DNA of 64,000 nt from Cryptosporidium bovis. Lineage: Eukaryota > Apicomplexa > Conoidasida > Eucoccidiorida > Cryptosporidiidae. The notes beneath the pieces are model-generated. The model made no database searches and was not told where the DNA came from. It worked only from the letters and a program-made list of their open reading frames with translations. Shown in pieces: positions 1,243-25,010 of this stretch. The stretch covers positions 1 to 64,000 of the forward strand of contig VHIT02000049.1 of NCBI GenBank assembly GCA_009768925.2, in the 5' to 3' direction. A program made the translations under genes and the position numbers. How positions within the stretch are numbered: the first letter of the stretch is position 1; each line of letters begins with the position of its first letter.

Positions 1243-2408
1243 CTAATCTCGGTTTTTCATTGAGAATATAATGTCTTTAATAGCTTGATCTGGATATAGT
1301 ACTTTATAACCAAGCATTCCTACCGGAATACTTGTACAATTTATGGATAAAAAAGGCTTATTATAGTTGAATTTAAAAAGTCCAAAATTATAATTTGAAC
1401 TAATGGGATTGAATGTAGCAATTCCAGTACATAAGGATCTTATAACATCTCTATTTATTACTCTTTGATAATTATTTTGAGTTGTAGAATTTTTATTGTA
1501 AATTTTAGTTTGACAAGTAATTGTTCCTATAATAGAAAATCCAATAACCTCAAATGTTTTCCCAGAATATAATCTGCTTATTATACATTCTGAATCGAAA
1601 TGTTTTTTCTTAAGATGATAATTAATCACTGTTCCATTATCAATGAATGGATTAAGGTAGTTGAGATCTTTTTGATTGTTCGTATTGTTATTATATATAT
1701 TAGCTTGAGTGGAGTTTGAAGTAAAGTTTGAGATAAGTTTTGAATCAAATATAGTGCTATTAAATATATTTAGTTGATTTTCCGGTATTTTTGGATATTT
1801 ATATGGTATTCCATTATAATCAGGATATTTAACAATGCAATTTTGAATTAAAAAAATATCATTTTTTTTTAAAGATATATAGTTACTTGGATAAAATGGA
1901 TAAGCTATTTGTATTTCACCAAAACAAAATGAAAATACCGGAAATTCACCTTTAATCTCTTTATATTTACATATCAATGAGCCTATAATCTATTTATGGA
2001 CAAAAAATAAAAGGACAAAGAAGTGTTTTTCAATTAGTTATTTTATTGAAAAAGGGAAATTTAAATTTAACTCACCTCTTTTCTTTTAACTAACATGGGA
2101 AACGCCACTTTATTATATTTATATTTAAACCCACAATATTCGATATATTCCATAACAATATAAGTGACAAGTAGTCTCCCAAGTATTGTATTGTTCAAAA
2201 TTGTGTCATAAACCTGAATATCTGAATTTAATTTTAAATTGCTGAAGTCAGGAGGCTTGTTCAATCCTAAATAGTCAAGTAATAAAGGTTTTGAAAGCTC
2301 CATTATAAGTTGCTCCTGCGATATATCACTGTTATTACATAATACCAAAATTTTAATCGATATTATGAAGAGTAAACATATTAAAAATGACTTCACTAAT
2401 TTAAGCAT
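1243..2408 (-). CDS. Secreted Cys-module protein, two exons
   Basis: Exon 1 is 2408..2076 (ATG at 2408) and exon 2 is 1989..1243. The 86-bp intron (2075..1990) has a GTGAGTT donor directly after a GAG codon and an AAATAG acceptor, and joins the exons in phase 0, giving about 359 residues. A nearer TAG at 1983 would break the frame. Residues 1-24 form a signal peptide (basic start, then SFLICLLFIISIKILVLC). Exon 2 has a CFGEIQIAYP...C stretch that matches the PCIGKVEYP...C stretch of the divergently transcribed neighbour at 3228, and a second possible module, CTGIATFNP...C. There are several Asn-X-Ser/Thr sites, and the even spread of Cys suggests disulfides. There is no C-terminal TM, so it is probably secreted. 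Function unknown. Confidence 0.8.
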
Positions 2409-3227: not shown

Positions 3228-5039
3228 ATGTCACTTGAAGTCATAATAAGTAAAAGCTGTAGAAAAGTTAGAGTGTTGTGTATACTTCTATTTCTGACGT
3301 TATTTACCATTAGTATAAGAGAATCATATTGTTCTGTTACAGGAAGTATAATAGAAGCAGTGAAGAGACAAAGGAACAGATTAAAACCATATGAAGAAAG
3401 AAAACCAAAGTTAGGTTGTCAAGATAGTATATCCCCATATGTAAAAAGACAGTTATATTGGTACTATAAGAATTTAGTGGCACAAAAAGAGATTAACAAA
3501 ATATGGAATAAAGGTGAAAAGTTTTCAGTAGACAATATCACAGATGATAGTATATTTTTGTCAGAATTTCTTCTGCCAACTAGTTCAGATACTTTAAAGT
3601 TTGGTAAATTTTTAGACAGTGGAAAAAAAGAGGAAATAAACGGTACTGAAAAATTATATGTAGACTATTCAACGCCATTATTGTACAATGTATCGCAATT
3701 AAGACAAGGATTAACTGGAATAGTACTAGATGGAATGGTAGGAAAACAAATTAAGGTCGAAATAAACGATTTTGGGAGAATATTAGATAGAAACGAAACA
3801 GATATTAAGTCTGTGGATAATAGTGGAACTAAATCAGACTTTTCTCATAATAGTAATTATATATGGGGAACTTTGGTTTCTCCTTGTGATGGGCAAGTTC
3901 AATTTAATTTAGCACTTGACAACTCGACTCAATACGAAGAAAATGTGTCTTTATACATTGTTTACTGTGATTCTGGTGGAGTCAGAGAAAGATATAGTAA
4001 ATTTGGGGGAAGGGTAACAGAATTCTTAAATGGTAGATACGGAGTAAGGAATTTTAAAGAGAATGAATGTGTTTACAAGGAAATGAGTCATGAAAAAAAT
4101 AATGGTTATGTATTTAGAAAAGAGAAAAATTCAGTGAATAAAAACACAATTATAGACTTAAAGAAAAGATATAATGTCAACAGAGGGGACGTATTAATGA
4201 AAATAGTTGAGTATTACAACCCTCCAATATTTGAGGAGGATTTAACAATAATACCAATATTTATGCCTTGTGAAGGAACGATAGCCTGGGATAAGAAGCA
4301 AAAGCATATTTTTACGAAAGGAGAAAGAATATTAGAGTTTAGATGTCATGGAGAGACTAAAATTAGACAGTTAATCTCACCTGGAAGGGGTTATACAGAG
4401 TTCGTGAATGAAGAGGACAAAAGAATTATGGGACTAATAGAGTCTATAAAATCTCAGGGGTTTCCTGGTGGTTATCTAAGCAATGGAGATGAATTGGAGT
4501 TAGATTCAACTAATAAATTGAGTACAAGAACAATACCTATTGGTTACTTGATTGGTTTAATGAAGCTTGAAGTAAATTATGGAAAAAAATATGAAAAAAA
4601 TATACACAAATTTGATGATGAGCCAATTCTAGTTAAAATGCCATGCATAGGAAAAGTCGAATATCCAATTTTAAAAGACAATTTTATGCTTAGAGACGAG
4701 GTAAGTTGAAAATAAATAACTTTTTTTTAGAAAAAAATCACAAAATAAATTATTGCTTCTAAAATATTTATTTGTCAGGTATTATACCTAGTAAGATGTA
4801 AAGATAGTAAAACCAAAATTATTGTTGAAACAAACAATGTACAGGGAACTGTGCAATTGCTAGTTGATAACCAGAATTTGGTAGAAAAAGACGTCTATAT
4901 TTTAAGAATTATTCCGAAAGACTTGTCTGAAATAGATCTAAACACTAATAAAGAGTTTCCAAATTGCAGAAATGATTTATCACTTTCAGAAACAGATCCT
5001 ATTACGAATTTATATTTGGAAAGGAACAGGGATGGGTAA
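3228..5039 (+). CDS. Secreted protein with three lipoyl-like modules, two exons
   Basis: Exon 1 is 3228..4700 and exon 2 is 4779..5039. The 78-bp intron has a GAG/GTAAGT donor and a TTTGTCAG acceptor, in phase 0, and the product is 577 residues. The ATG at 3228 is the first in-frame Met. A hydrophobic signal segment (VLCILLFLTLFTISI) follows within ~30 residues. Three units about 125 residues apart begin at residues ~219 (SPCDGQVQF), ~347 (MPCEGTIAW) and ~472 (MPCIGKVEY). Each has a second Cys 25-30 residues later and then a GxV-type strand. Unit 3 lines up by eye with the two halves of a biotinyl/lipoyl domain, and a Lys (KDSKTK) falls near the attachment position, but the DKA or MKM signature is absent. 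Splicing is needed to complete unit 3. Function unknown; a structural sandwich-barrel fold is inferred. Confidence 0.85.
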
Positions 5040-5322: not shown

Positions 5323-6627
5323 TCAGGGATGCTTGTTTTGCATTTCCCTTAGATACCAAGAAATAATAATGTAAAAGAGTATTATGAAAGATGAGAACAT
5401 AGTTATAAGTAGTAGCGTGACAATCATGATTTTTTTACTTCTTGATTTTTCCTCTTCTGATGAATCATTATCATTTACAGGATCATCACTTGCTTCCTGG
5501 TGAGTTTGAATCGCTTTTATGTGTAACTTTGGCAAAACTATATTTCCTTGTGAATTGCTTGAAAAGTATAACTTTGTGTCATTATGTGGCAAATACATAA
5601 ACGATAGTTTGTGTTGATCTATATTTATTTTATTATCATTAATGTATATGTTACTGTCTCTATAAATACTACTAATTTTATTTATACTAGTATTACCATC
5701 TCGATCAACATTTTCTTTAGAACCGTGTTCACAAGTTAGTTTATCCTTAAATGTAGTAATACCGTATCTAGCATAGTACTGATTTGCATTCTGTCTAGAG
5801 AGGGTAACATTATCTCTAAAAACTGGAACAAACTGTCTTATGTCTCGACTCTTAATTCCCTTATATTTATTAGCTATTCTCCTTGCAACGCCACTTTTAC
5901 CCGTACCTCTAGTTCCAGTTAAAAGTTCATCATTATCTTTAAAGTAACCTGCCACTAACAAAAAGCTTATGCTTTGGTATTGCCTACTTGAAAGCAAAGA
6001 CGAGTCTAAGTCCTCATTTATTGTATCATTCTCATAATTAATCTCACTCTGGATATTTTCTGAAAACGACATCGGTGACCCTCCACTTTTCCCTCTTATA
6101 TTCTTCAGTGTAAAAAATGCAAATTTATCTCTAGTTCTGGTTTTCATAATATTCTCATCAAATTTAAGATGCATTTCTATTTCCACTTCAACTATTCTCG
6201 ATATAAATCTAGAGAAACTCGTTAAATTATACTCGACTAACACACCCTCATACGGCTTATAAAGATCTATGCCACTATCTTTCTCGCTAAGTATTGATTC
6301 AGATATAATTTCATCCGATTCTCCAAATGAATCAAGCCCTATTATTGGTATTTTACCATTGGTCAAGTTACCATTATAATCAATAGTATCTATTTTATCA
6401 TTGTGTATTGTCCACACTTTACATGGTTCGAATAATCCATCTCTTAGTCTTTTAGAACGATCCAAATTAGAATCTGGTTCAGAACTTGGATCATTGATTC
6501 CTATTCCAGGTTGTTTTATATTGTTATTTCCTAAAGATTCGACAAAAATATACCTCAAGTCTCTCTCATTTAACAAAACGTTGAATGAAAATAATGCTAA
6601 TAACACCAATTTAAATTTTTTTGTCAT
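5323..6627 (-). CDS. Type I membrane protein, unknown
   Basis: 434 residues, single exon, ATG at 6627. It starts with a signal peptide (KFKLVLLALFSFNVLL) and ends with one strong transmembrane helix at residues ~400-424 (IMIVTLLLITMFSSFIILFY), followed by a short tail YLREMQNKHP. The ectodomain is Asp/Asn/Ser-rich with many N-glycosylation sequons and few Cys. One stretch, YKPYEGVLVEY, recalls the CxGxV strand of the two neighbouring secreted genes but lacks the Cys, so a relation is only possible. A run of acidic and Ser residues precedes the helix. Next to the other secreted genes it fits a surface or secretory-organelle protein. I recognise no family. Confidence 0.82.
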   Translation of the reverse strand: MTKKFKLVLLALFSFNVLLNERDLRYIFVESLGNNNIKQPGIGINDPSSEPDSNLDRSKRLRDGLFEPCKVWTIHNDKIDTIDYNGNLTNGKIPIIGLDSFGESDEIISESILSEKDSGIDLYKPYEGVLVEYNLTSFSRFISRIVEVEIEMHLKFDENIMKTRTRDKFAFFTLKNIRGKSGGSPMSFSENIQSEINYENDTINEDLDSSLLSSRQYQSISFLLVAGYFKDNDELLTGTRGTGKSGVARRIANKYKGIKSRDIRQFVPVFRDNVTLSRQNANQYYARYGITTFKDKLTCEHGSKENVDRDGNTSINKISSIYRDSNIYINDNKINIDQHKLSFMYLPHNDTKLYFSSNSQGNIVLPKLHIKAIQTHQEASDDPVNDNDSSEEEKSRSKKIMIVTLLLITMFSSFIILFYIIISWYLREMQNKHP

Positions 6628-7818: not shown

Positions 7819-9201
7819 CTAGACTTTGTTACCTAGAAGAGGCACATTCTCAATTTTTTGAGATGATTCTTTATTCTTGTTTTGGAAGTAAAGAGCAATA
7901 GAAACACCAATAATGACGAAAATAATAGCAACTCCAGTAATAGTGTACATCCATGTTGAATTTGACTCGATTGTTTGTTTAAGTCCAATCTTAAGTATTG
8001 GTCCAACTTGATCTAAATTTGACAATATACCAAACTGCGTTCCAGTGTCACCTGGCTCTAACAGTATCCTAAAATTGCTTGTATTAAATTGTTGCAATAT
8101 TACTGGAATTTGAGAGGAAATTGCACCCAATGAAATCGTGTCAGACTTAGATTGAGCCTTTTTACCCAATTTGCTTTCTATTGAATCAAATTTTGATATT
8201 TCTGTCAACCTTACTTGTGAATTCTCTAAATTTACAGTTGGATCTAAAATAGTTATTTTTATATTTTGTGGTGTTATTCCCGTATATCTGGTTATTACTA
8301 AGTCTGATTCTGATATTAGTGGTATTTTATTTGAAAGTATATTAGTAGATAGGTCAAATGTCATTATTACAGACTTTTCTTGCTTATTATCATCCATATC
8401 ACTTTCATTTTCGGTTTCCTCTTTCATTTCTATTTGAAATTGCTTCTCATCACTTGAAAATGGTTTTATTATCGTGTTTACCAACTGATTTATACTTGAT
8501 ATACCTATTGAATACTCATTTTCTCCTGTAATATTCACACTTGCTTTGGATCTGTCATCATCAATCGTCTCACTCAATATATTATATTTACTCTCGTCTT
8601 CCTCATTATTATTCACGTCAATCGATTTTTTACTCCCACTTAGACTGTGGTGGTTTACTGATCCTTTTTCCATCATTTCTCCTTGTTTAAACTCTTCTAA
8701 TATCTTTAATTCGTGTAACTCATCCTCCTCCTTTATTTTGTCTCTTCCTTTGTTGTTTATTTGCAGTTCATCAGTCTGAGTTGACTTCTCATCCAGAATA
8801 GCTGATTTTTCCTCATTTCTTGTTTCATAAGTACCCTCGTTGATATCTGCCATGGCCTTTGCTTCTGGTTTGTCGTACTTCGATTCAGCCTCTGCGTCTG
8901 AATCAGATTCTGTTTCAATCATTTCTGATTTGACATCTTTTTCAGACTCTAGCATACTTGAAATTGTATAGTTCTCAGGAGGTACTTCTGTAGCATTTGC
9001 TGAAATTAAATCTGCAGTAGACTCAGTTTTTGAGTTTTCATACAGTGGCTCGGAATCCTCCTCAATCATGGTTTCATTAACTTCACGAGATGATGCATCT
9101 TCACTGCTTGCCCTTATTGCAGTTACACCACAATCTTTCGCACATATTATTGTTAATGAACAAAATAAAAATAATCGGATAAATAACAATGCTATTCTCA
9201 T
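7819..9201 (-). CDS. Acidic type I membrane protein, unknown
   Basis: 460 residues, single exon, ATG at 9201. An N-terminal signal peptide (IALLFIRLFLFCSLTIICA) is followed by a very acidic region to residue ~270, rich in Glu, Ser, Asp and Thr with almost no Cys. Residues ~275-415 are less biased and could fold into beta strands. One transmembrane helix lies near residues 427-447 (ITGVAIIFVIIGVSIALYF), followed by a short cytoplasmic tail ending LLGNKV. The layout (signal, acidic ectodomain, one TM, short tail) resembles other apicomplexan surface or microneme-type proteins, but no adhesive domain is visible. Function unknown. Confidence 0.83.
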   Translation of the reverse strand: MRIALLFIRLFLFCSLTIICAKDCGVTAIRASSEDASSREVNETMIEEDSEPLYENSKTESTADLISANATEVPPENYTISSMLESEKDVKSEMIETESDSDAEAESKYDKPEAKAMADINEGTYETRNEEKSAILDEKSTQTDELQINNKGRDKIKEEDELHELKILEEFKQGEMMEKGSVNHHSLSGSKKSIDVNNNEEDESKYNILSETIDDDRSKASVNITGENEYSIGISSINQLVNTIIKPFSSDEKQFQIEMKEETENESDMDDNKQEKSVIMTFDLSTNILSNKIPLISESDLVITRYTGITPQNIKITILDPTVNLENSQVRLTEISKFDSIESKLGKKAQSKSDTISLGAISSQIPVILQQFNTSNFRILLEPGDTGTQFGILSNLDQVGPILKIGLKQTIESNSTWMYTITGVAIIFVIIGVSIALYFQNKNKESSQKIENVPLLGNKV

Positions 9202-9817: not shown

Positions 9818-11803
9818 TTATGTTTTCCTCCTAATAACCCTCTTTATTTTTTCATCTTTTTTTTTGGGGACTTCTACAACTGGTGGTTCTAACACTTCAT
9901 GGGAAATTGGTGTTCTAAATCGTGTAAAATTTCTATACATTCTTTGGTTTCTTTTGCTTGTTTTTGCAGATTCCTCTTGCTCACCTTCATCTCCCACAAA
10001 TTTAGTTTCCGTGTATGCTTTTTTCAATGGGAATTCTGATTTAGGTTCAAAAGGAGCATGAAATGAGGGTCTTGCATCTGCCTTTTTTGATATAATAAAT
10101 TCTTTTGCAGCATCAATGTCATATTCTTCTGTGCTTTCAGGAGAATCTCTAACTCGCATTTTATCATTAGTAGTTGCTCTTGAGGGTGATTTCAATCTTC
10201 CAACAGTTGCTTTGGGTTTCACAGCCATTGGCTTGCTTGAACCTAAAGATGAATTAGAAACAAACTCTCTGCTCCTTCCTATTCTTCCAATAGATGGTGA
10301 CCCCTTCTTTAGCATACTTCTCGTTTCGTGAGTACCTGGAAAGTTCAAGTCCTCAAGTTTCGGAGTGGTTACTTGAACCGGAGTTAGTCTTCCAAATGAA
10401 CTGCTCTTTTTCTCAATTTTTTCACCTTCTACATCCGCACTTTCAAACAAATTTACTAATTCTGAACCTAATGCTAATTTTGGATTATCTCGATAACTTG
10501 TTTTCAAATCAACTTTTTTTGGAATATGTTGACCTTGTTCATATTTTACATCGTCCTCTTGTTCCATTTCAAAATCCTTACTACTATGTGTCCTTTTTTC
10601 GTGTTTTTCACTTTCAGCTTGATTACTATGTTTCGTTTCGTCATGATCGGATAAAAATTCCGTTTCTGTGCTTTTTGTCGAAGTCCCGATATCACCAAGT
10701 TCTGTTGTATAAAGTGGATCATGTTGAGTGCCTTTACTACTAAATTTACTACCTATTGCAAAACCTTCATCTTTCGGTCCCATTTTTCCTTCGTAAAAAA
10801 GAGTAGTATCAATCTTACCTAGTGGTGGTTTAAATAATTTTTTCATATTTGCAATCTGCTGAAGTTCAGTTGTTAATTTTAAAAGATCCTCTTCATGACC
10901 TTTCTTCTCAAATGACTTATGCTGTTTCTCTAATACTTCTTTATAATAATCATTAGTAATCATTGTTGGAAACTCATCAATTTCAGATATATATTGATTC
11001 TTTAACACAGCTTCAATTGTTTTCTTTTCTACAGGCGGATTCTTCTGTAGCGAACTAATAATAGACTCCAATCTATTCATCATAAATTCCTGATCCTTTA
11101 ATATTTCTTCTCTTCTTTCCATTCTCTCTTTGTTTAGTCTTTTGACTTCTTTTCCAGCTCGCTTGTGTAACATATGTAACACCTGGTCTACTTGTTCTAT
11201 TCCTTCTCTAGATCGAGAAAATTTATCGATTCCAACTGGAATTTTGCTTTCTTCTGAACTAGTTTCACTGTCTGATTCTTTGTTCGAGCTTTTATCTGTA
11301 CCATTATCTTCGCCGCCTCCACTTGAAGTCTCAACTCCGGAAAATCGATATTTTTCTGAACCTGTACTTGTCTTAACTTCGTCTCCGCCTTTTGTATGAG
11401 TTTCATGATCAGTGTCTGTTTTAAAGTCATGTTCTTTTGATTCAATGTATGTTTTGTCTTCGGGTTTCGTACTTACCTCCAACTCGGAATGGGATTCAGG
11501 GCTTGATTCAATTGAACTGGTTTGATTTGAATCCACTCTTTTTTGTCTGTATCTTTTAGTGTCTTCGTCGGAAGAAAGTGAATCGTATTTATTTTTACTG
11601 TCTCCAAGTGTATTCCAGATCTTATTAAAGCTAATAAATTCTACTTCACCCTCTTTTACTGGATAGTTATTGGAATTAACACTTTCTTGATCATTATCAC
11701 CCCCTAGCTTTTCCGTGCAATTTATAAATACAAATTGATACTCAACGACCATAAAACAGACAATCAGGAGAAATTTAATGTAATTTCCACATTTGATCTC
11801 CAT
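9818..11803 (-). CDS. Lys/Glu-rich secreted protein, unknown
   Basis: 661 residues, single exon, ATG at 11803. It has a signal peptide (YIKFLLIVCFMVVEYQFVFI) followed by a highly charged low-complexity region (Ser/Glu/Asp/Thr/Lys). Residues ~200-325 are richer in Lys, Glu, Leu and Met and are probably helical or coiled-coil (ERMERREEILKDQEFMMNRL). The C-terminal ~200 residues are Lys/Pro/Ser-rich and very basic at the end (KKKDEKIKRVIRRKT). Apart from the Cys in the signal region the protein is nearly Cys-free, and there is no TM near the C-terminus. It resembles disordered secreted or exported proteins. No family recognised. Short frames on the opposite strand are mirrors of its biased composition. 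Confidence 0.82.
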   Translation of the reverse strand: MEIKCGNYIKFLLIVCFMVVEYQFVFINCTEKLGGDNDQESVNSNNYPVKEGEVEFISFNKIWNTLGDSKNKYDSLSSDEDTKRYRQKRVDSNQTSSIESSPESHSELEVSTKPEDKTYIESKEHDFKTDTDHETHTKGGDEVKTSTGSEKYRFSGVETSSGGGEDNGTDKSSNKESDSETSSEESKIPVGIDKFSRSREGIEQVDQVLHMLHKRAGKEVKRLNKERMERREEILKDQEFMMNRLESIISSLQKNPPVEKKTIEAVLKNQYISEIDEFPTMITNDYYKEVLEKQHKSFEKKGHEEDLLKLTTELQQIANMKKLFKPPLGKIDTTLFYEGKMGPKDEGFAIGSKFSSKGTQHDPLYTTELGDIGTSTKSTETEFLSDHDETKHSNQAESEKHEKRTHSSKDFEMEQEDDVKYEQGQHIPKKVDLKTSYRDNPKLALGSELVNLFESADVEGEKIEKKSSSFGRLTPVQVTTPKLEDLNFPGTHETRSMLKKGSPSIGRIGRSREFVSNSSLGSSKPMAVKPKATVGRLKSPSRATTNDKMRVRDSPESTEEYDIDAAKEFIISKKADARPSFHAPFEPKSEFPLKKAYTETKFVGDEGEQEESAKTSKRNQRMYRNFTRFRTPISHEVLEPPVVEVPKKKDEKIKRVIRRKT

Positions 11804-13135: not shown

Positions 13136-16100
13136 ATGAAATTAGTTCCAAAATACAGCAGCTTGTTGCTGCTGCTGTATTTGTTCAACAATGTAGAAAG
13201 TAACAATTTGATTGTAAGACCAGGAATAACTACGAGAAAGTCATCTGAGGGTCTCGGAAGGACATATGACAAAGGTGTGCAAGACACGAACCAAATGTTG
13301 GAGAGTTATTATGATGGTGATGATAATTGGAGACATTATAGAGTAGTCACTCCTGATATGAATTATAAAGATAATAAATTAATTTCAGATGAATTCTCAG
13401 AACCTCAAGATACAGATAAAAGCGAAGAGTCAAAGTTTACTGAACCACCCGCAATAGCACAAACTCCAGCAGATTACAAATTTCCAGAGATGGTGTTACC
13501 TCAAATAAAAGGAAAAATCCCAGCCACAATTAATAAGGACATGAAAGTTGAAGAAAATATAAAAGAACAAGAGCCACAAGTGGAGAATGATTTTTCAGAC
13601 GTTGCTCCCTCAGAGGATGAAACCGAAGTATTGAAAAGCCATGAGGAAAGCGAGGGTGGAACAGAATATGAATATCAAGGTCAATCAGAAGGTTTTGGCC
13701 CATCAAATATGGGTTTTGAAGCTCTTGATGAATTCAGTGACCCTCCTACTGAAAATTATAGTTATGAGGAGATTGTTAAAGATGTGGAAAATAAAGAGGA
13801 AATGGGTGATTATGGCATTCAGTATTTAAGTGAGTCAGGAGATACAGATAACGGAATGAGTTATATATTGAGAGATGAGAAAGACAAAATGAGTGATGGC
13901 AATTATGATACTCAGTATATTATTGGAGGTGATGGTAGTGAGAGTTTTTCAGATAAAACAGGGGACAATGATAAATCAAAACATATTAAAGAAACAAGAT
14001 ACATAAATGAAAGCGAGGGCGACTTTAATCAAGAATCAGTTATCTATAAAAGTGAGGGACCGGACTCGGAATATAGTGATAAGTATGTGTATGAGAGTGA
14101 AAGAACAAAATCAGGTGATGGATATTCTGAGAAATATATTGAAAATAATTCTGAAGAAGGTACTGAATATGATTATATTTCAGAAGTAGATAACAAGAGG
14201 AAAAAACATAGAAAAGATGGTAAGAAGAATAAGGTTAAAATTAAAAAGAGAATAAACAGAAAAGATCTTCCAAGGGACTGGGAAACTCTCATCGATGATG
14301 AAAGTGAAGCATGGATCGACAAGAATATGAGAGATAAAGGTAGTAAAGGGGGTGAATATGGTGATGAAGGTGATTTAATAAACAGATCTAGAAGAAGAAA
14401 AGCTGTGAACAATAATGATATTTCTGATGATGAATTCGAGTTCAAAGGAAGAAGGAAAAGATATACAAAAGATAGAATAGATGATGATTTATTGGATGAA
14501 TACGACATGATTGAATCTCGACCCAGAAAAGGAAAGAGAAGAGTTAAAGCAAAAAGAGATCCTGATTATGTCAGATATATAAATAGAGGGAGAAGAAGAG
14601 GATATGATAGAATTAGAAAAATTAATGGAGAACCATATATGATTACAGTCGGAGATAGAATTCTATCAAAGTATCCAAATAAGAAAAGAGATAATATACT
14701 GAGATTAAGGGATGTATTGTTAGAATCAATAAACAATGGTAAAATACCAAAAAATAACTTTGAAGACTTAATTGACCCTGTAGATTTAATGCTTTTATAC
14801 AAGAATAGACGAAAAATGCCAATATTATCAGTAAAAGAAAAAGGAAATATTCCATTAGAGTTTTTATTAAAATTACCAAAAGGTATATACAGATGGGAAG
14901 AATTAGACCCAAAAGAAAGGAATAGGCTTAAGAAAAAATGGAAAGAGGAAATAGCTAGTGGAACATTTTGGGATGAAGATAAAATTCACGGAGATTGGGG
15001 AGATGAAATAAGACTCCTTGGTGAGTGGGGAGAGGAGGAATCATTGAGAGGTTTTCTAGATAGAGAAACAAAAGATGTTGATGATATGGGCTCATATTAT
15101 GTATTTGACCCAAAATTTACAGATTTAAAGAATAAAGGAGTATTCAGTAGTGAGTATCCTGAGGATATAGAGCATTCAATTTTAGTTGGAAATTTATATC
15201 CTGAGAGGAAGATAGACAAGGAATTTAGACTTCCAGAAAGGCAAATACTAATGTATCACCCAGAATTCATATATCAGGGTGACGATTTAATAAATAATTT
15301 CAATGTAGAAAACTTACAGTCAGCGAGAAATGAAAATCCCTTCTATTGGAAAGATTCACAAATAAGGGGAAAATTTGGAAGAGCTTATCCAGAGGACAAA
15401 TATTCATGGATAGAGTCGTTAGATATGGATGATGCAATTAATTTAATTAGGGATGCACAATATAATGACCCAGAATTTGCAGAGAGGTTAATATATACGT
15501 ATCCGTGGTTGAGAGAAAAACTAGGCAACTCTTTAAGATTTGATGACGATATTATACTCCCTATTCAGGTACTAAATGAATTTATTCCAAGATCAGTTGG
15601 TTCTAAAGTAAGTGATGATTCAAAACATCCAGGAGGAAGGTGGTATTTTTCTGAAATTCCAGATGACCAAAATTTGGACAGATATTTCACCGATATATAT
15701 AGATATCTAGAACCTCGAAGAAAAGGTGGAAGGGTAGCAAAAGGCAGAGGATTAAGAGAAGAAGTGGGATTTATGGATGGAGATATAAAGAATATGTATA
15801 ATCTAGTTTATGATGAACACTTAAATTCAGGTTGGGACAGAGAGACAATAAATTATCTCAGAGAACTCTTTAGAGATGCGGAAAACAGAATCCTTGATAT
15901 AGATGAAAGTGAAAGACGTCCAAGAATGGGGAAGGAAAGAAAAAAAAGAAGACATACGTTAAATTCGACCCCGGATACACCAATTTGGTATTTTGGCACA
16001 GATGAACAAATAAATCGTGAGAAACAACTGGAATTTGCGATAGAAACAGATTCTTTAGGAGGAATAATTGAAAATCGTCCTATAGCAAGACAAGTATTTG

Positions 16101-19100
16101 TGAATCCAAGAGGAATTGATAAAGGTGAAGTGCTTGGACTAGATATTCAAGAATTGGGAGGTGACTATGAATATGATCTTGAACCCTTATATTTGAACAC
16201 TGACTATATGGATAGTGATGACTTAGACGAACTAGATTTGGAAACAATGGTAAATTATAGAACTAGTAGGTTACCAATATCATTACGGTCGATAAAGAGA
16301 GGAGGGAAAAGAAGTGATAACGAGAGGGACCATCCATTTGAATACAGAAACGGCATGTTATTGAATAACTTTAAGCCAATAAGAAGAGTAATATACGGTG
16401 ATGATGATATAGATGATATGTGTCCACTAACTATATCACAGACAGAGTTTCTCCATGGTGATTCAGGATTTAATTCTAGAAATCCATTATTAATAGACAG
16501 AATTAATTTAAATAGAAGAGGATCGGGGAATAATAAAGATAGAAATAAAAGGAAAATAAGGGAATACAAAGTAAATGAGTTCGGTCATGAGGATCCCATG
16601 GATATTTTGATGAGTTATTATGACTCAAACGAAAATAGCATTTTAGATGTTTTTGATGACAGAGGAATTTATAGACCAACAAATAAAAGAAGAGTAGGTT
16701 ATGGAATGAACGATGTTGATTACATCAGGAGATCGAATGATGATGATTGGAATTATTTAAAACTTCTAAGAAATTCATCGAAAAAGGCAAAACTTGGTAA
16801 AAGAGATGACAAAAAGCCACTTTGGTATTATTATGATAGTATTGGGAAACGTTGGGATGATACTTTGAAAAAAGATGATGATGAAGCTGGCTCATCGATT
16901 GACTTAATCATAAAAGAAATAGAAAGAGGTGGAAATAAGAGGAGAAACAGGAATAAAGTGGCAAAAAGTAGGAGAAACAAAAGAATTAGCTCAGGTGGTA
17001 AAGATAAGAATAGAATTATGAAAAATCAAAAGAACAGAAAGAAAGGTAGAAAGCAAAAAAGAGTTCATTTTAAGATGAATCTAGAAGGTGAAGATTCCAA
17101 AAGCGACTTTGTTTCAGATATCACAAATGATCCTTCAGACTATTCTAGCCAAGAAACTAGTGAAAGTGAAGAAACTGTATATAAGGATGATGACTCTGAC
17201 GAAAGAGAAGAGGATGATGATATTGAAGAATTAAGTCCATTGGGTAAAAGATTGCTTATGGCTGCGGGATACGATGACGATTTAGATCCTTCAAAGTCAC
17301 TTTCCATTGAGAGTGAGATATTGAATGTTATAGATACAGGAAAAAGGAGTAAAGGTAAAATTAATAAAAAAAATAAAAAAAAGGAATTGAGTTTGGATGA
17401 TATGTTTGATTTGAATGCTAAAATAAAGTTGGATAATCACGATTTATCAGAAATAAGACGTATAAGAAGAGATATGGACGATGAATCTGGAGATTTAGAA
17501 GCACTAAAGAATTTGGTCAGAAAACTCCATTTGAAGGACTATATAAACTTGGATGACGACTCCAAAGAAGAAATCGAAAAGTCTGAAGTAGTTGATGGAA
17601 GTGAATCTGGAGTTGATTTCTTATTTGTTGGAGAAAAAGAATCGTCGGATGTTTCTTCAACTACGCAAGAGAACGAAGATGCAACTGAATCGAAAACCGA
17701 GTTTTCGAATATTGTAGAGGACACAAAGTCTAGTGATGGATACCCAATGAAGTTGATTAAATTTAAAAAAGGAGGCAAATCACAGAATAATAGCGATGAG
17801 AATTCATCATCCTCTTCTCAGGAAGGTAAAACAGAATTGGATTCACAATTTGACGAAGAATTATCTATAAGTGAATGGGATTCCTTGTTTGAGGATACAT
17901 TGAAGGAGATTAAGAAAAAAAATGATAAGAAAAAAAGAAAAGGCAACAAAAGGAGTAAAATTAAATCAAGAAAGAATATTAAAAAAACGAATGACGAAAG
18001 AAAGGCTTTAAATGAATTAGGTATAACACCAAATGTAATAAGAAGAGTGAATTTAATGCTTAAAGATAATGGAGTAAAGAATGCACTAGATTATTTATTA
18101 AACGAGTTGGAGGATAACATTGGAAGTAATGGAGATAGAAATGAAAAAAAGATCAGAGGAAAAAATAAGAGAAAAGAAAATAATAAAAATAACCGTTATT
18201 ATGAGCGTAGCCCATATGATTTGGAACCAGTGACTCCGTCTTTTTCTCGTTATATAATCAAATTAAATGATGTACTAGGCCCAAAAGAAGCATTAGAGGA
18301 GTTATTAGATAATTTGGGAGTAGATTTGTCATCGGGAAGACCAGTAAGAAAGGAATTAAGAAGATACTTAACACCGAATATTATTAATGAGGTAAACCGA
18401 CTTAGGAAAAAGAAGAACGGGGACGAATTGGCCTTAAATAGATTAATGAATGTTCTTAGAATTCCAAGAAGAGGAAGAAATAAGGGTAAACGTTTATCTA
18501 AAAGGGATAGAAAACTTCCAGCATTACTTAATGAAGATGATATTAAGACAGTGAATCGCTTATTAAGAAGGAACAAAACACCACAAGCACTAGAATTCTT
18601 TATAAAAAACACTGGAATGGACAAGGACATGGAAGACTTAAAGAATGGATTTTATAAGATGAATGATTCATATTCTGGCTTAAATTTGCCTGCGGAGACC
18701 TTGGTTAAAATAGATAGATTGAGAGACATGGGACCTCATGGATGTAGGGAGGCACTTTCTGATATATATGACGATTTACGCATACCAAAACAAAGGCATT
18801 TGTTTGATGGCAGCCTTGAGGGTAGAAATGGAAGTGTTTTAAGATTGCCAGACAGAAATTATCAAAGAAGAATGGTGAAATCACCAAGTGTTATGATAAA
18901 TAAAAGTAGGTACTATCTTGATGATGATTTAAATGATGATAACGATTTTGGTGAGGGAGAGACAAGTGAATACTCTCAGTATGATGACTTTTCGACAATA
19001 ATACCAAGAAACGATATATATAGATTAATAGGTCGAGATATGGACAAAAGAAATAATGATTTAATTTCAGTGCTAGAATCTCCTTTAAGTATGGTAAAAG

Positions 19101-21562
19101 GAAGACCAGTAGAGTCGGGGGTTGATTATTACCATAATAATTATGATAATTTAGGAGAGGCAGGATTGGGAATGTTAGAGCACCATCCATCACCAAGATT
19201 AAAATACGCACCATTAACAACGAAATATGACGATGATATAAGAAACTATGTAAATTCAAGAAGAAATAGCTATGGGATGCCAGATATACCATCATATCAC
19301 TATTGGAATTATTATCCAGAGATAACCGGGAGATCAAAATATAGTGATCTAAACAACAATTCAGATAAAAGAATGATATTGGAAAGGAAAAGGAAATTAG
19401 GCGACTATTTAAATAGGGAGCACAGTGTTCCAGTTCCTGTTGAAACTGGTGGTAAATCGCCAAAAACAATGATATTAAAGTCTTATGTGGATGACGACTT
19501 GCCGGTAAATAAGGAAGAAATGATGCTAATTCAGAGGCCCGATCATTATTCGGAAGAAGAGCTCTATGAAATAGGTCAAAGACTAACTGGAATAAAGGAC
19601 AATATGGAAGAAGGTAAGCTAAAAATAGGAAAAGGTGATTCAATAAACTCATCATCAAATTTGTTCGGAGAAGGAATTACTGGGGTGGATTTAGAAAGAA
19701 AAGGATCTAAGGAAGAGATAATATCGAGTCTAGTATCTGATCCATTGAATAAAGAAGCATCTAAGAAAGAATTGATAAGGGATATTGCCGATAATGATGA
19801 TTCTGTTGTTAGAAAGTTGAATAACTTGATTATCGATAGACCAATGATGAATAAGGATGGCATTCCAAATCCAATTAAGACATTAGAAAAACTGAAGGAG
19901 CTAAAGAATGAAGATCCAAATGACAAGGGATTAACGTGTTATACATATTTAGACACAACATTAGATGATTATGATAAGAAAATACTTTCAGATGACTATG
20001 TTAATCACTTGGAGAATTTGGTAAATGAGGACAACATTAAACTGGAAAAATCGTTAAATCTCATGGAAGAGGATTGCAAGGACATAAACAGTCAAATAAA
20101 ATTAAAGGAGTTAAACTGTGATGGTTTATCGAGGGAGGATACAGTATCAAGAACAAAACCTCTAGATGCAAGAAAACTTTCAAGATCAGTTTCTAAAATA
20201 AAGAATATATATGCGAGGTCGTTTCTAAAGCAAATTAACTTAGCTTGTGACGTGGCGAGATTATTCTTCCGAAACTTTTCCGATTTTAAAGCTTGGAACA
20301 AGGCAATGGACAAGCATCGTTGGGTAGCACTACCACTGGTTTCACCGCAAAGCTATGTTCCAAATATGGGTGGTTTGAATATATTCCAGAGGATAATGTA
20401 CAATCAGGTGACTAGAAAGTATCCCAAACATTCACCAAGGAGAGTTCTTATAATAGCAATTTCAAGTAAGAGCTTTTCAGATAGGAAGCTTCCAAACAGT
20501 TTTACAAACATAGAATTTAATTCAAAAAATTATCCCGTTGAATACGTTATGAACGTGGAATATAACAAAGATGGAATGATGATAGTACCTTTGGTTGATT
20601 TGGCTTTGTGTATAAAAGGAGGGCTCCAGTTACACAATTTAAGTATAAAAAAGTTAAATAAATCATCAAAACCAAGATTGGGTACTTGTTTAATTGGTGG
20701 TGTTAAAACCCATTCAGCTGCCCAGAAAGTATATAGAACTGCACTCAAGTATCTAGAAATGAGTTCAGATTTAACACTGGCTAAGTTTATGATTATTCCA
20801 ATTAGAATTGGTAGTGAAAATTTATCAGAGCAGCTTAAACTTGCGCAAAAAAACAATATTGAAAAGAATTTTGATACAAAAATACCGGAAGATACAATAT
20901 CCCCGATGATATCTGATATGGAATTTAGCAAAATGCAATTTGAGATGACGCATGAAAACAATAAAAAAATTAGAGAAAGGTACAATAAGAAGTTGATAGA
21001 TTTAAATGAGTCCATATTCAAAATATACCTAATGAGTTCGAGAGAGCTTGACATTAGGTCCTTAAAAGCAAACGGTCCCAGGGTCATTGTTATTCCAATG
21101 TCTTTTCCACAATTGTATATCAAAGGCTACAATAACGCAATGAAATTAGTGGAAAGAATACAGAAAAGATATAAACCAGGTAGATTAAGTAATAGAGCTT
21201 ATAGGAACAAATTAAAACCAGGTTTTATATTGTTAATTAACGATAAAACAGTCAAAAATGATAAACAATTTTTAAGAGAACAAATAAAAAGAATACAAAG
21301 TTTCTTCACTAATCCTTATAGTTTTAAGAACTTCAAATCCAAGAAATACGAGGGGCCTGTATTCGAGATTCGTGGTGTTAATGATCTATTAACAAGAAAA
21401 TATTTATTGGATGCTATTACTAGGGCCTCTAGACAACCTTCTGTTGTTCCAATGATTATTTTACCTATTTTTGTTGACAATAATGAAAGATCCCAAAAAT
21501 CGGATAGGAGATCCATGAAAAAATCATTAAAAAAGGCTATTAAACACTCAGCAAATGTTTGA
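13136..21562 (+). CDS. Giant secreted protein, 2808 aa, with strand-Pro C-terminal domain
   Basis: Single exon from the ATG at 13136. There is a signal peptide (SSLLLLLYLFNNVES), and then ~350 residues that are strongly acidic with Ser/Glu/Tyr repeats. Much of the centre is charged and Arg/Lys/Asp-rich, with likely folded segments at ~480-900 (WEELDP, WIESLDMDDAINLI). Helical repeats of ~46-73 residues occur at ~1625, 1698, 1744, 1797 and 1850, with an outlier at ~1435. From ~2390 to the end is a compact, less biased domain made of hydrophobic strands often ending in Pro: WVALPLVSP, MMIVPLVDLAL, KFMIIPIRIGSE, VIVIPMSFP, MIILPIFVDN. The same motifs in the same order occur in the next gene (22665). 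There is no C-terminal TM. It is a secreted orphan and neither domain is one I can name. Confidence 0.88.
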   Translation: MKLVPKYSSLLLLLYLFNNVESNNLIVRPGITTRKSSEGLGRTYDKGVQDTNQMLESYYDGDDNWRHYRVVTPDMNYKDNKLISDEFSEPQDTDKSEESKFTEPPAIAQTPADYKFPEMVLPQIKGKIPATINKDMKVEENIKEQEPQVENDFSDVAPSEDETEVLKSHEESEGGTEYEYQGQSEGFGPSNMGFEALDEFSDPPTENYSYEEIVKDVENKEEMGDYGIQYLSESGDTDNGMSYILRDEKDKMSDGNYDTQYIIGGDGSESFSDKTGDNDKSKHIKETRYINESEGDFNQESVIYKSEGPDSEYSDKYVYESERTKSGDGYSEKYIENNSEEGTEYDYISEVDNKRKKHRKDGKKNKVKIKKRINRKDLPRDWETLIDDESEAWIDKNMRDKGSKGGEYGDEGDLINRSRRRKAVNNNDISDDEFEFKGRRKRYTKDRIDDDLLDEYDMIESRPRKGKRRVKAKRDPDYVRYINRGRRRGYDRIRKINGEPYMITVGDRILSKYPNKKRDNILRLRDVLLESINNGKIPKNNFEDLIDPVDLMLLYKNRRKMPILSVKEKGNIPLEFLLKLPKGIYRWEELDPKERNRLKKKWKEEIASGTFWDEDKIHGDWGDEIRLLGEWGEEESLRGFLDRETKDVDDMGSYYVFDPKFTDLKNKGVFSSEYPEDIEHSILVGNLYPERKIDKEFRLPERQILMYHPEFIYQGDDLINNFNVENLQSARNENPFYWKDSQIRGKFGRAYPEDKYSWIESLDMDDAINLIRDAQYNDPEFAERLIYTYPWLREKLGNSLRFDDDIILPIQVLNEFIPRSVGSKVSDDSKHPGGRWYFSEIPDDQNLDRYFTDIYRYLEPRRKGGRVAKGRGLREEVGFMDGDIKNMYNLVYDEHLNSGWDRETINYLRELFRDAENRILDIDESERRPRMGKERKKRRHTLNSTPDTPIWYFGTDEQINREKQLEFAIETDSLGGIIENRPIARQVFVNPRGIDKGEVLGLDIQELGGDYEYDLEPLYLNTDYMDSDDLDELDLETMVNYRTSRLPISLRSIKRGGKRSDNERDHPFEYRNGMLLNNFKPIRRVIYGDDDIDDMCPLTISQTEFLHGDSGFNSRNPLLIDRINLNRRGSGNNKDRNKRKIREYKVNEFGHEDPMDILMSYYDSNENSILDVFDDRGIYRPTNKRRVGYGMNDVDYIRRSNDDDWNYLKLLRNSSKKAKLGKRDDKKPLWYYYDSIGKRWDDTLKKDDDEAGSSIDLIIKEIERGGNKRRNRNKVAKSRRNKRISSGGKDKNRIMKNQKNRKKGRKQKRVHFKMNLEGEDSKSDFVSDITNDPSDYSSQETSESEETVYKDDDSDEREEDDDIEELSPLGKRLLMAAGYDDDLDPSKSLSIESEILNVIDTGKRSKGKINKKNKKKELSLDDMFDLNAKIKLDNHDLSEIRRIRRDMDDESGDLEALKNLVRKLHLKDYINLDDDSKEEIEKSEVVDGSESGVDFLFVGEKESSDVSSTTQENEDATESKTEFSNIVEDTKSSDGYPMKLIKFKKGGKSQNNSDENSSSSSQEGKTELDSQFDEELSISEWDSLFEDTLKEIKKKNDKKKRKGNKRSKIKSRKNIKKTNDERKALNELGITPNVIRRVNLMLKDNGVKNALDYLLNELEDNIGSNGDRNEKKIRGKNKRKENNKNNRYYERSPYDLEPVTPSFSRYIIKLNDVLGPKEALEELLDNLGVDLSSGRPVRKELRRYLTPNIINEVNRLRKKKNGDELALNRLMNVLRIPRRGRNKGKRLSKRDRKLPALLNEDDIKTVNRLLRRNKTPQALEFFIKNTGMDKDMEDLKNGFYKMNDSYSGLNLPAETLVKIDRLRDMGPHGCREALSDIYDDLRIPKQRHLFDGSLEGRNGSVLRLPDRNYQRRMVKSPSVMINKSRYYLDDDLNDDNDFGEGETSEYSQYDDFSTIIPRNDIYRLIGRDMDKRNNDLISVLESPLSMVKGRPVESGVDYYHNNYDNLGEAGLGMLEHHPSPRLKYAPLTTKYDDDIRNYVNSRRNSYGMPDIPSYHYWNYYPEITGRSKYSDLNNNSDKRMILERKRKLGDYLNREHSVPVPVETGGKSPKTMILKSYVDDDLPVNKEEMMLIQRPDHYSEEELYEIGQRLTGIKDNMEEGKLKIGKGDSINSSSNLFGEGITGVDLERKGSKEEIISSLVSDPLNKEASKKELIRDIADNDDSVVRKLNNLIIDRPMMNKDGIPNPIKTLEKLKELKNEDPNDKGLTCYTYLDTTLDDYDKKILSDDYVNHLENLVNEDNIKLEKSLNLMEEDCKDINSQIKLKELNCDGLSREDTVSRTKPLDARKLSRSVSKIKNIYARSFLKQINLACDVARLFFRNFSDFKAWNKAMDKHRWVALPLVSPQSYVPNMGGLNIFQRIMYNQVTRKYPKHSPRRVLIIAISSKSFSDRKLPNSFTNIEFNSKNYPVEYVMNVEYNKDGMMIVPLVDLALCIKGGLQLHNLSIKKLNKSSKPRLGTCLIGGVKTHSAAQKVYRTALKYLEMSSDLTLAKFMIIPIRIGSENLSEQLKLAQKNNIEKNFDTKIPEDTISPMISDMEFSKMQFEMTHENNKKIRERYNKKLIDLNESIFKIYLMSSRELDIRSLKANGPRVIVIPMSFPQLYIKGYNNAMKLVERIQKRYKPGRLSNRAYRNKLKPGFILLINDKTVKNDKQFLREQIKRIQSFFTNPYSFKNFKSKKYEGPVFEIRGVNDLLTRKYLLDAITRASRQPSVVPMIILPIFVDNNERSQKSDRRSMKKSLKKAIKHSANV
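18013..18830 (+). repeat. Degenerate helical repeats inside the giant protein
   Basis: Five protein repeats with the pattern (T/N)P..I..(V/I)(N/D)RL....G..(E/N)AL..LL..L.I: TPNVIRRVNLMLKDNGVKNA (~residue 1627), FSRYIIKLNDVLGPKEALEE (~1701), TPNIINEVNRLRKKKNGDEL (~1745), EDDIKTVNRLLRRNKTPQAL (~1799) and ETLVKIDRLRDMGPHGCREA (~1852). Each looks like two helices. The copies are divergent at the DNA level. Confidence 0.6.
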
Positions 21563-22664: not shown

Positions 22665-25010
22665 ATGAAACCATTGTACATATTTTTGCTGTTACTAAAC
22701 TTTGACATAGCCTTTGTAAGCAGTAAAGCGTTTGGGGAAATTGATAATAGACGCAACAAAAATGGTGGTTTCTTGGAGGAGTATGTAGATATGAGTTCTG
22801 AGTCACAGGAGGATAACGAAAACGCTGATACTGGCGTTACAGGAATAAACAAAACGGTAAAAGGAACAACTAACGATCAAAAACAGGTAGAAATGGATAG
22901 GTTTGAGGGGGAAAGGATAAGTGGCGAAGATAAAAAAAGAAGTGATAAAGGAGCTTCTGAGGATGGATTTACCGAGTCCAGCGAAGGGTTTACATATTTC
23001 GAGGAAAAACCGAGGGCGATGATGAGGTATGAATACAAGAATTATGAAAATACACCAATAAACATATTGGTTCAAGATAGTAATGTTAAATACGATGAAT
23101 CAGAGTACGGCAGTATAGGTTCGCCAGTATTAGTGGAAGAGGATGAAAAAAACAACAAAGGTCTGAGAGTTGAATATCATAAGAAGATGCCAAAGTACGA
23201 CATTGAACAAAGAAGAGCAGCAATTGATATGATGTATTTTGTGCCGAGGTCACTGGTCCACTTTGAACCAATAGAAAAAATACCAGTAAGGGAAAAGAAC
23301 ACATTTTTGCCTATAAGAGAAAGGCCAGCAGCAACAGTGTCACCAAATGGTAAATATGTATTGGTAACAGGTAAATCAGAAAGCGAGTGTCCGGAGAATA
23401 AATATGATATATTTATAAGGAGAATAAAAACAAATAAAAGGAAAAGGGGTGGGAGTACTGTTGATTTGAAGTATTTGTCAAGGCTGAAAAAAAGTAAATT
23501 ATTGAAAAAATTTAAAAAACTTGATTTGGAAAATAGGAAAAGTGGTTTGAAGGTAGATAAAGATGACCAGGTAAAATTAGATAGATACCTGTTGTTGGGA
23601 ATGAGTGAATACTATTCAAAAAGGAAATGGAAAAAATATAGCGATAATGTTAAAGAAGTTGTATTATATATAGATAGCATGAATAAGATATTGGAATTAT
23701 GTTTTCTAAACTACCAAACATATTCGAAATATGCATCAACGTCAAGATATTACGATAAATTACCAAAGAGGATAAAGAAAGAGTCGAATGCAATACAACA
23801 AAAATTTAATGCAATACCGTTCACGGCATTAGGTAGTTACGTGCCTACGGAGGAGGATTTTAGCATATTAATAAAGTCTGTGAAGAAAAATATAAACATA
23901 AATAGAAGAAATTTAAAGTTTTCAAGAGGTAAGAGAGTATTTTTTGTGGGTTACCAGAAGGCACCAGTGAAATCAATAAACTTGCCACTTGATGATTCAG
24001 ATATAGAGGAAATAACAAACAATCAGGTGTCCCAAAATAAAAGATATAAATACTCTAGCTTTAAAAAAATATTTAAATCGATTAAAAAGTCACAGTATAA
24101 GAAAGAATCACGCTTTAACTTGGTATATGCAGATTCAATTAATTCATATATTGGAGTATTAAAAAATTTGTGGATGTGTCTAGTATCAGGTTTATTCAAA
24201 ATACTTAAATACAAGCAAAAGGTAACTGTTTGTATAATAGGCAATGTTCCAAACTACACCGTGGCAAATGTAATAAATAGAATAGTTATTGCAATGCTAA
24301 AGTCGTCTAAAATAACGAATGTATCGAAATATATATTATTTCCAATATCAATAGGAAATGAGAGATATGGCTGTAAACAATATAATAATGATCACTTATT
24401 CGGACATATGGTAGAAAGATGGGATCAACCTATATTTACATTAAATGGCTATAGAATACTCAAAAGTATATGGTACGGTTCCAGATTATATAAATACAAT
24501 CTTTCAATAATAAAAAACTATGCATCTGCATTTAATTCAATCAAGTATCGTTTTACAAGAACTTTTAATAATTCTCCAGTAATTATTCTGCAACAATCAT
24601 TTCCTTTTGGGTTTTTAACTAGAGTTAGTGATTGCAATAAATTGTATAATGATATCAAGAAAATCAAGCTGCTAAGAATAACAATCTTATGTTTAAAAAA
24701 AAATGGTGGTACAGATACCGTTGATAGAAATGAATTATTACTTAAGGAAAACGAATTATTGTCTTCAAATAAATACAAAAAACAAAGTAAAAAAGGCGAG
24801 AAAAAACTAATTACAATTAAAAATGTCAATTCTCCTAGAGATATGGACGTTATTAATGAATGGTTAAACTCATTTAGGATTAAAATACTAAATAACAATA
24901 TTCAAATGCTTATTGTACCCATTATGGTCATAGAAAAGAAGTCATTTAGAAAAAATTATAAAAAACTAAAAAAAGTACTAAGGTTACAGAGAAAAAATAA
25001 AAATAATTAA
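22665..25010 (+). CDS. Secreted paralogue of the giant protein, 781 aa
   Basis: Single exon, ATG at 22665, with a signal peptide (LYIFLLLLNFDIAFVSS). An acidic, Ser/Glu/Lys-rich region runs to ~residue 180, then Lys/Arg-rich sequence to ~380. From ~386 to the end it carries the domain seen at the C-terminus of the upstream giant gene, with motifs in the same order: SYVP (386), RVFFVGY (423), TVCIIGNV (519), YILFPISIGNE (555), VIILQQSFP (636), ITILCLK (671) and MLIVPIMVIE (746). Spacings match the giant protein closely (36 residues between the third and fourth motifs in both). The two genes are adjacent and on the same strand, so tandem duplication followed by divergence is likely. Secreted, basic C-terminus, function unknown. 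Confidence 0.87.
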   Translation: MKPLYIFLLLLNFDIAFVSSKAFGEIDNRRNKNGGFLEEYVDMSSESQEDNENADTGVTGINKTVKGTTNDQKQVEMDRFEGERISGEDKKRSDKGASEDGFTESSEGFTYFEEKPRAMMRYEYKNYENTPINILVQDSNVKYDESEYGSIGSPVLVEEDEKNNKGLRVEYHKKMPKYDIEQRRAAIDMMYFVPRSLVHFEPIEKIPVREKNTFLPIRERPAATVSPNGKYVLVTGKSESECPENKYDIFIRRIKTNKRKRGGSTVDLKYLSRLKKSKLLKKFKKLDLENRKSGLKVDKDDQVKLDRYLLLGMSEYYSKRKWKKYSDNVKEVVLYIDSMNKILELCFLNYQTYSKYASTSRYYDKLPKRIKKESNAIQQKFNAIPFTALGSYVPTEEDFSILIKSVKKNININRRNLKFSRGKRVFFVGYQKAPVKSINLPLDDSDIEEITNNQVSQNKRYKYSSFKKIFKSIKKSQYKKESRFNLVYADSINSYIGVLKNLWMCLVSGLFKILKYKQKVTVCIIGNVPNYTVANVINRIVIAMLKSSKITNVSKYILFPISIGNERYGCKQYNNDHLFGHMVERWDQPIFTLNGYRILKSIWYGSRLYKYNLSIIKNYASAFNSIKYRFTRTFNNSPVIILQQSFPFGFLTRVSDCNKLYNDIKKIKLLRITILCLKKNGGTDTVDRNELLLKENELLSSNKYKKQSKKGEKKLITIKNVNSPRDMDVINEWLNSFRIKILNNNIQMLIVPIMVIEKKSFRKNYKKLKKVLRLQRKNKNN

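Follow-up and report, generated by a model that had tools for sequence, protein, structure and literature searches.

A secretory-pathway candidate of Cryptosporidium bovis with three Cys-paired repeats, read as possible barrel-sandwich hybrid domains

What kind of protein is encoded near the end of a 181-kb contig of Cryptosporidium bovis, a gut parasite of cattle? The gene in question occupies positions 3228-5039 of the window (the whole stretch of DNA analysed, 64 kb in length, which opens the contig) and lies about 3 kb from the contig end. A first-pass annotation had proposed a secreted protein built from three lipoyl/biotinyl-like modules. With a probability of a little under 0.6, we consider the product to be a Cryptosporidium-specific protein of the secretory pathway, in which three tandem Cys-paired hybrid-fold domains, without a prosthetic group, would make up a binding scaffold.

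The product is 577 amino acids long and is read across a single intron. Four sequences of this protein are known: that of C. bovis, C. ryanae FG386_003298 (P0002, 578 residues), chipmunk genotype I ELE39_000552 (P0003, 445 residues) and P0004 (456 residues). They were the ones kept, the C. bovis protein itself included, from 4944 candidates with the full protein as query and from 5414 with the alignment, so no deep alignment was possible. FG386_003298 aligns across the exon junction, which backs the splice site. The gene and its N-terminal parts are laid out as follows.

3228..4700, plus strand: exon 1, residues 1-491, covered by the C. ryanae relative
4701..4778, plus strand: intron of 78 bp, phase 0, GTAAGT...TTTGTCAG (GT..AG), within unit 3 directly after E491
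4779..5039, plus strand: exon 2, residues 492-577 and the stop codon
3228..3332, plus strand: probable signal peptide from hydropathy and alignment, residues 1-35, with a final Cys and then Ser in 4/4 sequences; its end point is a guess
3333..3851, plus strand: N-terminal region, residues 36-208, of no known family and with no Pfam match, holding sequon N103

All 19-residue windows with a mean hydropathy above 1.2 fall within residues 3-37, with no later hydrophobic stretch, and the signal-like N-terminus of the first-pass annotation is borne out by this profile. Residues 1-35 thus probably form a signal peptide. Beyond it, the only all-Cys columns (among the sequences covering each) are C220, C247, C348, C373, C473 and C498, while other cysteines vary. 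The pairing of one conserved Cys couple with each repeat likewise stands: five of the six residues are present in all four sequences and the sixth in both that reach it. N-glycosylation sequons N103 and N239 are also conserved in 4/4. Conserved cysteines together with conserved sequons would suit an oxidising, glycosylating compartment, and we infer that the protein enters the secretory pathway via its probable N-terminal signal.

The repeats themselves each carry a Pro-Cys step, at residues 219-220, 347-348 and 472-473, and a further conserved Cys follows at 247, 373 and 498. These positions agree with the three units previously placed at about 219, 347 and 472.

3852..4232, plus strand: unit 1, residues 209-335; SPCDGQV..C247, then GGRVTEFL...VNRGDVLMKI, with a variable insert between the halves
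4239..4592, plus strand: unit 2, residues 338-455; MPCEGTI..KGERILEFRC373, then SPGRGYTEF...IGYLIGLMKLE
4611..4934, plus strand: unit 3, residues 462-543, with the intron inside; MPCIGKV..C498, then VQGTVQLLV..VEKDVYILRI
3885..3968, plus strand: Cys220-Cys247 pair of unit 1, spacing 27, identical in 4/4
4269..4346, plus strand: Cys348-Cys373 pair of unit 2, spacing 25, identical in 4/4
4644..4799, plus strand: Cys473-Cys498 pair of unit 3, spacing 25; Cys473 in 4/4, Cys498 in 2/2 sequences reaching it

Each unit carries two half-motifs, P-C-x-G-x-V ... G-E-x-L ... C and then x-x-x-G-x-V ... G-D-x-L-x-x-I, which are degenerate in places; units 1 and 2 have length-variable inserts between their halves, and unit 3 is without one. 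When nine unit sequences are aligned, four each for units 1 and 2 plus C. ryanae unit 3, no row departs from the first-turn P, C and G, a Glu and the second Cys; the second half adds an invariant Gly and an invariant Glu, and the final strand is V-x-x-G-D/E-x-I-like in most rows. By local alignment with BLOSUM62, 5/1000 shuffles reach the score of units 1 and 3, as do 5/1000 for units 2 and 3, and units 1 and 2 are not significantly alike by this measure (625/1000). Profile-to-profile comparison gives 28.9 for units 2 and 3 (0/200 column shuffles), 17.4 for units 1 and 3 (3/200) and 18.1 for units 1 and 2, where the similarity remains weak (3/200). The strongest single result is a leave-one-out comparison, in which a profile of units 1 and 2 finds unit 3 with a score of 35.3 and an HH probability of 86% (0/200 shuffles). 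The claim that the repeats align to one another in a profile comparison therefore stands, and these comparisons support three genuine repeats.

Do the units adopt the barrel-sandwich hybrid fold? The pooled repeat profile outscores all 100 shuffles against each of four hybrid-fold families, and the alignment to the biotin/lipoyl profile, which is loose and gapped near the hairpin, reaches both halves of the unit; the M23 and EIIA matches are only 9-12 columns long. An AlphaFold model of one repeat gave a predicted local distance difference test score (pLDDT) of 60, and a Foldseek search with it returned RNA polymerase beta' chains, biotin carriers and a lipoyl domain among its rows. Since these two largely independent routes, profiles against shuffles and model comparison, agree, the hybrid fold is supported as the best available reading for the units; it is not proven. 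A profile alignment with HlyD was dropped, as shuffled profiles also scored about 134. Sequence searches of the PDB gave no convincing match (best expectation value, E, 0.026, to an engineered protein).

Several observations weigh against a hybrid fold and in the same measure favour a different account, that the repeats are genuine with another small all-beta fold and the hybrid signal reflects a commonplace pattern, a P-x-x-G-x-V turn with a beta-hairpin. The confidence of the one-repeat model is modest, the profile scores are modest as well, with the raw biotin/lipoyl and M23 scores close to or within the range of control pairs, an S1 control fold also passed one test, and unrelated rows such as CS domains appear in the Foldseek list. 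The overlap of raw scores with control pairs lowered our confidence in the overall explanation and raised that in this other-fold account. A full-length AlphaFold model of P0002 (four rows) reached a pLDDT of 32.6 and was discarded. Against another all-beta fold stand the agreement of profile and model routes on the hybrid class and the extension of the biotin/lipoyl alignment over both halves; we regard it as unlikely, though it is the competitor we take most seriously. The lipoyl/biotinyl-like fold first proposed thus keeps its support from profiles and the unit model, qualified by the modest scores, the overlapping controls and the poor full-length model.

If the units are hybrid domains, could they be functional biotinyl or lipoyl carriers relocated to the secretory pathway? 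In their favour, unit 3 of C. bovis has three lysines near the hairpin (499, 502 and 504), one of which the first-pass annotation had placed near the attachment position. However, the biotinyl-lysine position aligns to a Thr in C. ryanae unit 3, with the same residue in C. bovis; K499 and K502 are replaced by Q and E in C. ryanae, and K504, which is kept there, aligns one residue past the biotinyl lysine (the alignment is loose in this region). The attachment loop has no Lys in unit 1 of any of the four sequences and one in unit 2 of three of them, and the E-A-M-K-M context of the carrier lysine is absent from the units. With E values up to 10 allowed, PF00364, which had been suggested as a check, matched none of the five unit sequences tried. 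In the genome itself a PF00364 search found one place, on contig C4, and did not match the three-repeat gene; the genome comprises 9.06 Mb in 43 contigs. For PF12700, the other family named at the outset, nothing exceeded the cut-off in whole-Pfam scans, with no search aimed at it by name. A prosthetic-group carrier function is not supported by these sequences, and a relocated carrier appears highly improbable.

The best single family match instead raises the question of whether the gene descends from phosphatidylserine decarboxylase (PSD, PF02666), with unit 1 retaining the S-P-C-D-G entry motif of a degenerate, non-catalytic copy and the remainder remodelled and duplicated. Against a 32-sequence PSD alignment unit 1 scores 37.5 (E 4.5e-5, probability 69, 0/200 shuffles), the C. 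bovis PSD reads SSPCEGRI at the place of the entry motif, and the Foldseek search with the unit model also returned 8zia, which we take to be a PSD-family decarboxylase. However, PSD against EIIA scores 36.0, about equal to unit 1 against PSD, so a score at this level fits membership of one fold class better than it fits descent. The PSD match is poor for units 2 and 3 (11/200 and 14/200 shuffles reach their scores), three of the four sequences lack the G-S-T/S motif and the fourth has one beyond the units, at 146, and Y-H-R and H-x-x-H are absent from all four. The own-genome search with PF02666 led only to the PSD gene on contig C28, distinct from this one, whose product is 100% identical over the 267 residues queried to the protein named for C. 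bovis. Descent from PSD is accordingly improbable in our judgement. Within the PSD family, that C28 gene (L002:1408-2211) has SPCEG at the entry motif, as do 6/6 Cryptosporidium rows of the alignment; three other rows have SPCDG and the rest have no Cys there.

Returning to the tandem hybrid-fold scaffold, how might such a protein work? In each domain one Cys would lie in the first turn and the other just before the hairpin that holds biotin or lipoate in carriers. The first turn and this hairpin are close neighbours at one end of the barrel in known carriers, and for this reason we propose that each Cys pair would probably form a disulfide closing the tip where a prosthetic group would sit. 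With its tip so closed, a domain would carry no prosthetic group, and the most likely role would be that of a stable extracellular or vacuolar binding scaffold, whose binding surfaces may be offered by the three Cys-paired beta domains and the variable inserts.

Is the gene alone? The own-genome search with exon 1, in which the best candidates were scored, indicates a single copy, and a hidden Markov model (HMM) search of 1184 six-frame stretches revealed no second clear copy in the window. Upstream lies a gene in divergent orientation.

1243..2408, minus strand: neighbour gene, 360 residues; exons 2408-2076 and 1989-1243, intron 2075-1990

The neighbour protein carries a hydrophobic stretch at its N-terminus and four Cys pairs with spacings of 26, 29, 24 and 31. 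As in unit 3, a phase-0 intron immediately follows a Glu that stands seven residues before a Cys (C118). At the sequence level the resemblance to the units is uneven and weak. Residues 81-180 of the neighbour score 48 against C. ryanae unit 3 (4/2000 shuffles), and against C. bovis units 3, 2 and 1 the score is reached by 71/2000, 380/2000 and 534/2000 shuffles, respectively. With profiles the corresponding counts are 0/100 for unit 3, 2/100 for the pooled profile and 20/100 for unit 2. We take the neighbour as, at most, a possible distant paralogue. The HMM search of the window did not pick up the neighbour (second exon 1.6 bits, E 18), comparison with the four hybrid-fold families gave no match, and an own-genome search with its second exon, again scoring the best candidates, found only itself. 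An extended version of the explanation makes this gene the fast-diverged second member of a small family that arose next to the end of the contig, with a secreted hybrid-fold module of Cryptosporidium's own with a disulfide-closed tip and a tandem binding-scaffold role. In the neighbour the matches to unit 3 and the pooled profile fall on the C133-C162 pair and the intron falls in the C92-C118 pair. Because these registers point to different Cys pairs, we lowered the small-family version and hold it as doubtful.

How widely is the three-repeat protein found, and how fast does it change? C. bovis and C. ryanae share 65% identity overall for this protein, compared with 84% for PSD. The stretches SPCDG, VRERYS (C. 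bovis spelling, all six residues invariant), EFLNGR, MPC and GYTE are invariant in the four sequences and likely represent the core of the protein. ELE39_000552 and P0004 leave the alignment exactly where exon 1 ends and terminate no more than about 20 residues later; both gene models seem to read on into the intron and to lack exon 2. No relative from C. parvum or C. hominis was found in a protein database that did return PSD of C. hominis, C. canis and C. felis. Relatives outside 0.55-1.75 times the query length, or without shared 5-mers, would escape this search, so loss in C. parvum and C. hominis cannot be claimed. Whole-Pfam scans gave no match over the cut-off for exon 1 and none for P0002 or P0004. 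In ELE39_000552, residues 94-204 have a sub-threshold match to DUF1139 (E 0.0071, 16.2 bits, cut-off 25) that is absent from P0002 and P0004. In the open-licence PMC library we found no literature on the hybrid fold in Cryptosporidium or Apicomplexa, or on the C. ryanae locus tag; one article reports three chipmunk-genotype-I-specific genes, two of them with unknown function (PMC6532270).

The surroundings of the gene include a run of open reading frames (ORFs), from 5323 to 31615, with hydrophobic, signal-like starts (judged by eye) and no Pfam match over the cut-off.

5323-6627, 7819-9201 and 9818-11803, minus strand: signal-like ORFs
13136-21562 and 22665-25010, plus strand: signal-like ORFs
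25352-31615, minus strand: signal-like ORF

Beyond this run, 4/4 ORFs tested have known domains (Vps53, RRM/WW, AMP-binding and WD40). The contig start holds a tandem array with a 30/60-bp unit at 11-431, and an ORF at 206-919 on the plus strand, over part of it, encodes repeated EPSRDEYTKV-like peptides. The fast divergence of the three-repeat protein and its signal-bearing neighbours would suit a protein that interacts with the host or with the surface of the parasite itself.

If this explanation is correct, a fold familiar chiefly from metabolic carriers and RNA polymerase became a Cys-paired secreted module in an apicomplexan parasite, and an unnamed Cryptosporidium protein that the domain libraries searched do not recognise would be placed in a structural class, with a domain map open to testing. 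Pooling repeats can yield evidence on fold despite only four known sequences.

How, then, does this protein compare with known users of the fold? Unlike Biotin_lipoyl domains (PF00364; biotin carriers and E2 lipoyl domains), the Cryptosporidium units have no conserved attachment lysine and have a Cys pair flanking the hairpin tip, in a protein with a signal-like N-terminus, inserts in units 1 and 2, and no recognition by the Pfam model. PSD shares the entry motif SP(C)DG with unit 1 and provides the strongest single profile match, whereas the units lack the enzyme's G-S-T and His motifs and the genome encodes PSD separately. The SI3 and jaw regions of RNA polymerase beta' matched by the unit model are, we presume, sandwich-barrel hybrid domains; they belong to an intracellular enzyme and no sequence match to the units was found. 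M23 peptidases and PTS EIIA-glucose are hybrid-fold relatives against which the pooled profile scores above all 100 shuffles, with the raw M23 score within the control-pair range. The earlier view that the fold is normally cytosolic, mitochondrial or plastid was overstated: in bacteria it serves beyond the cytoplasm in M23 peptidases and HlyD/RND adaptors, and a small hybrid-type domain of cytochrome f lies in the thylakoid lumen.
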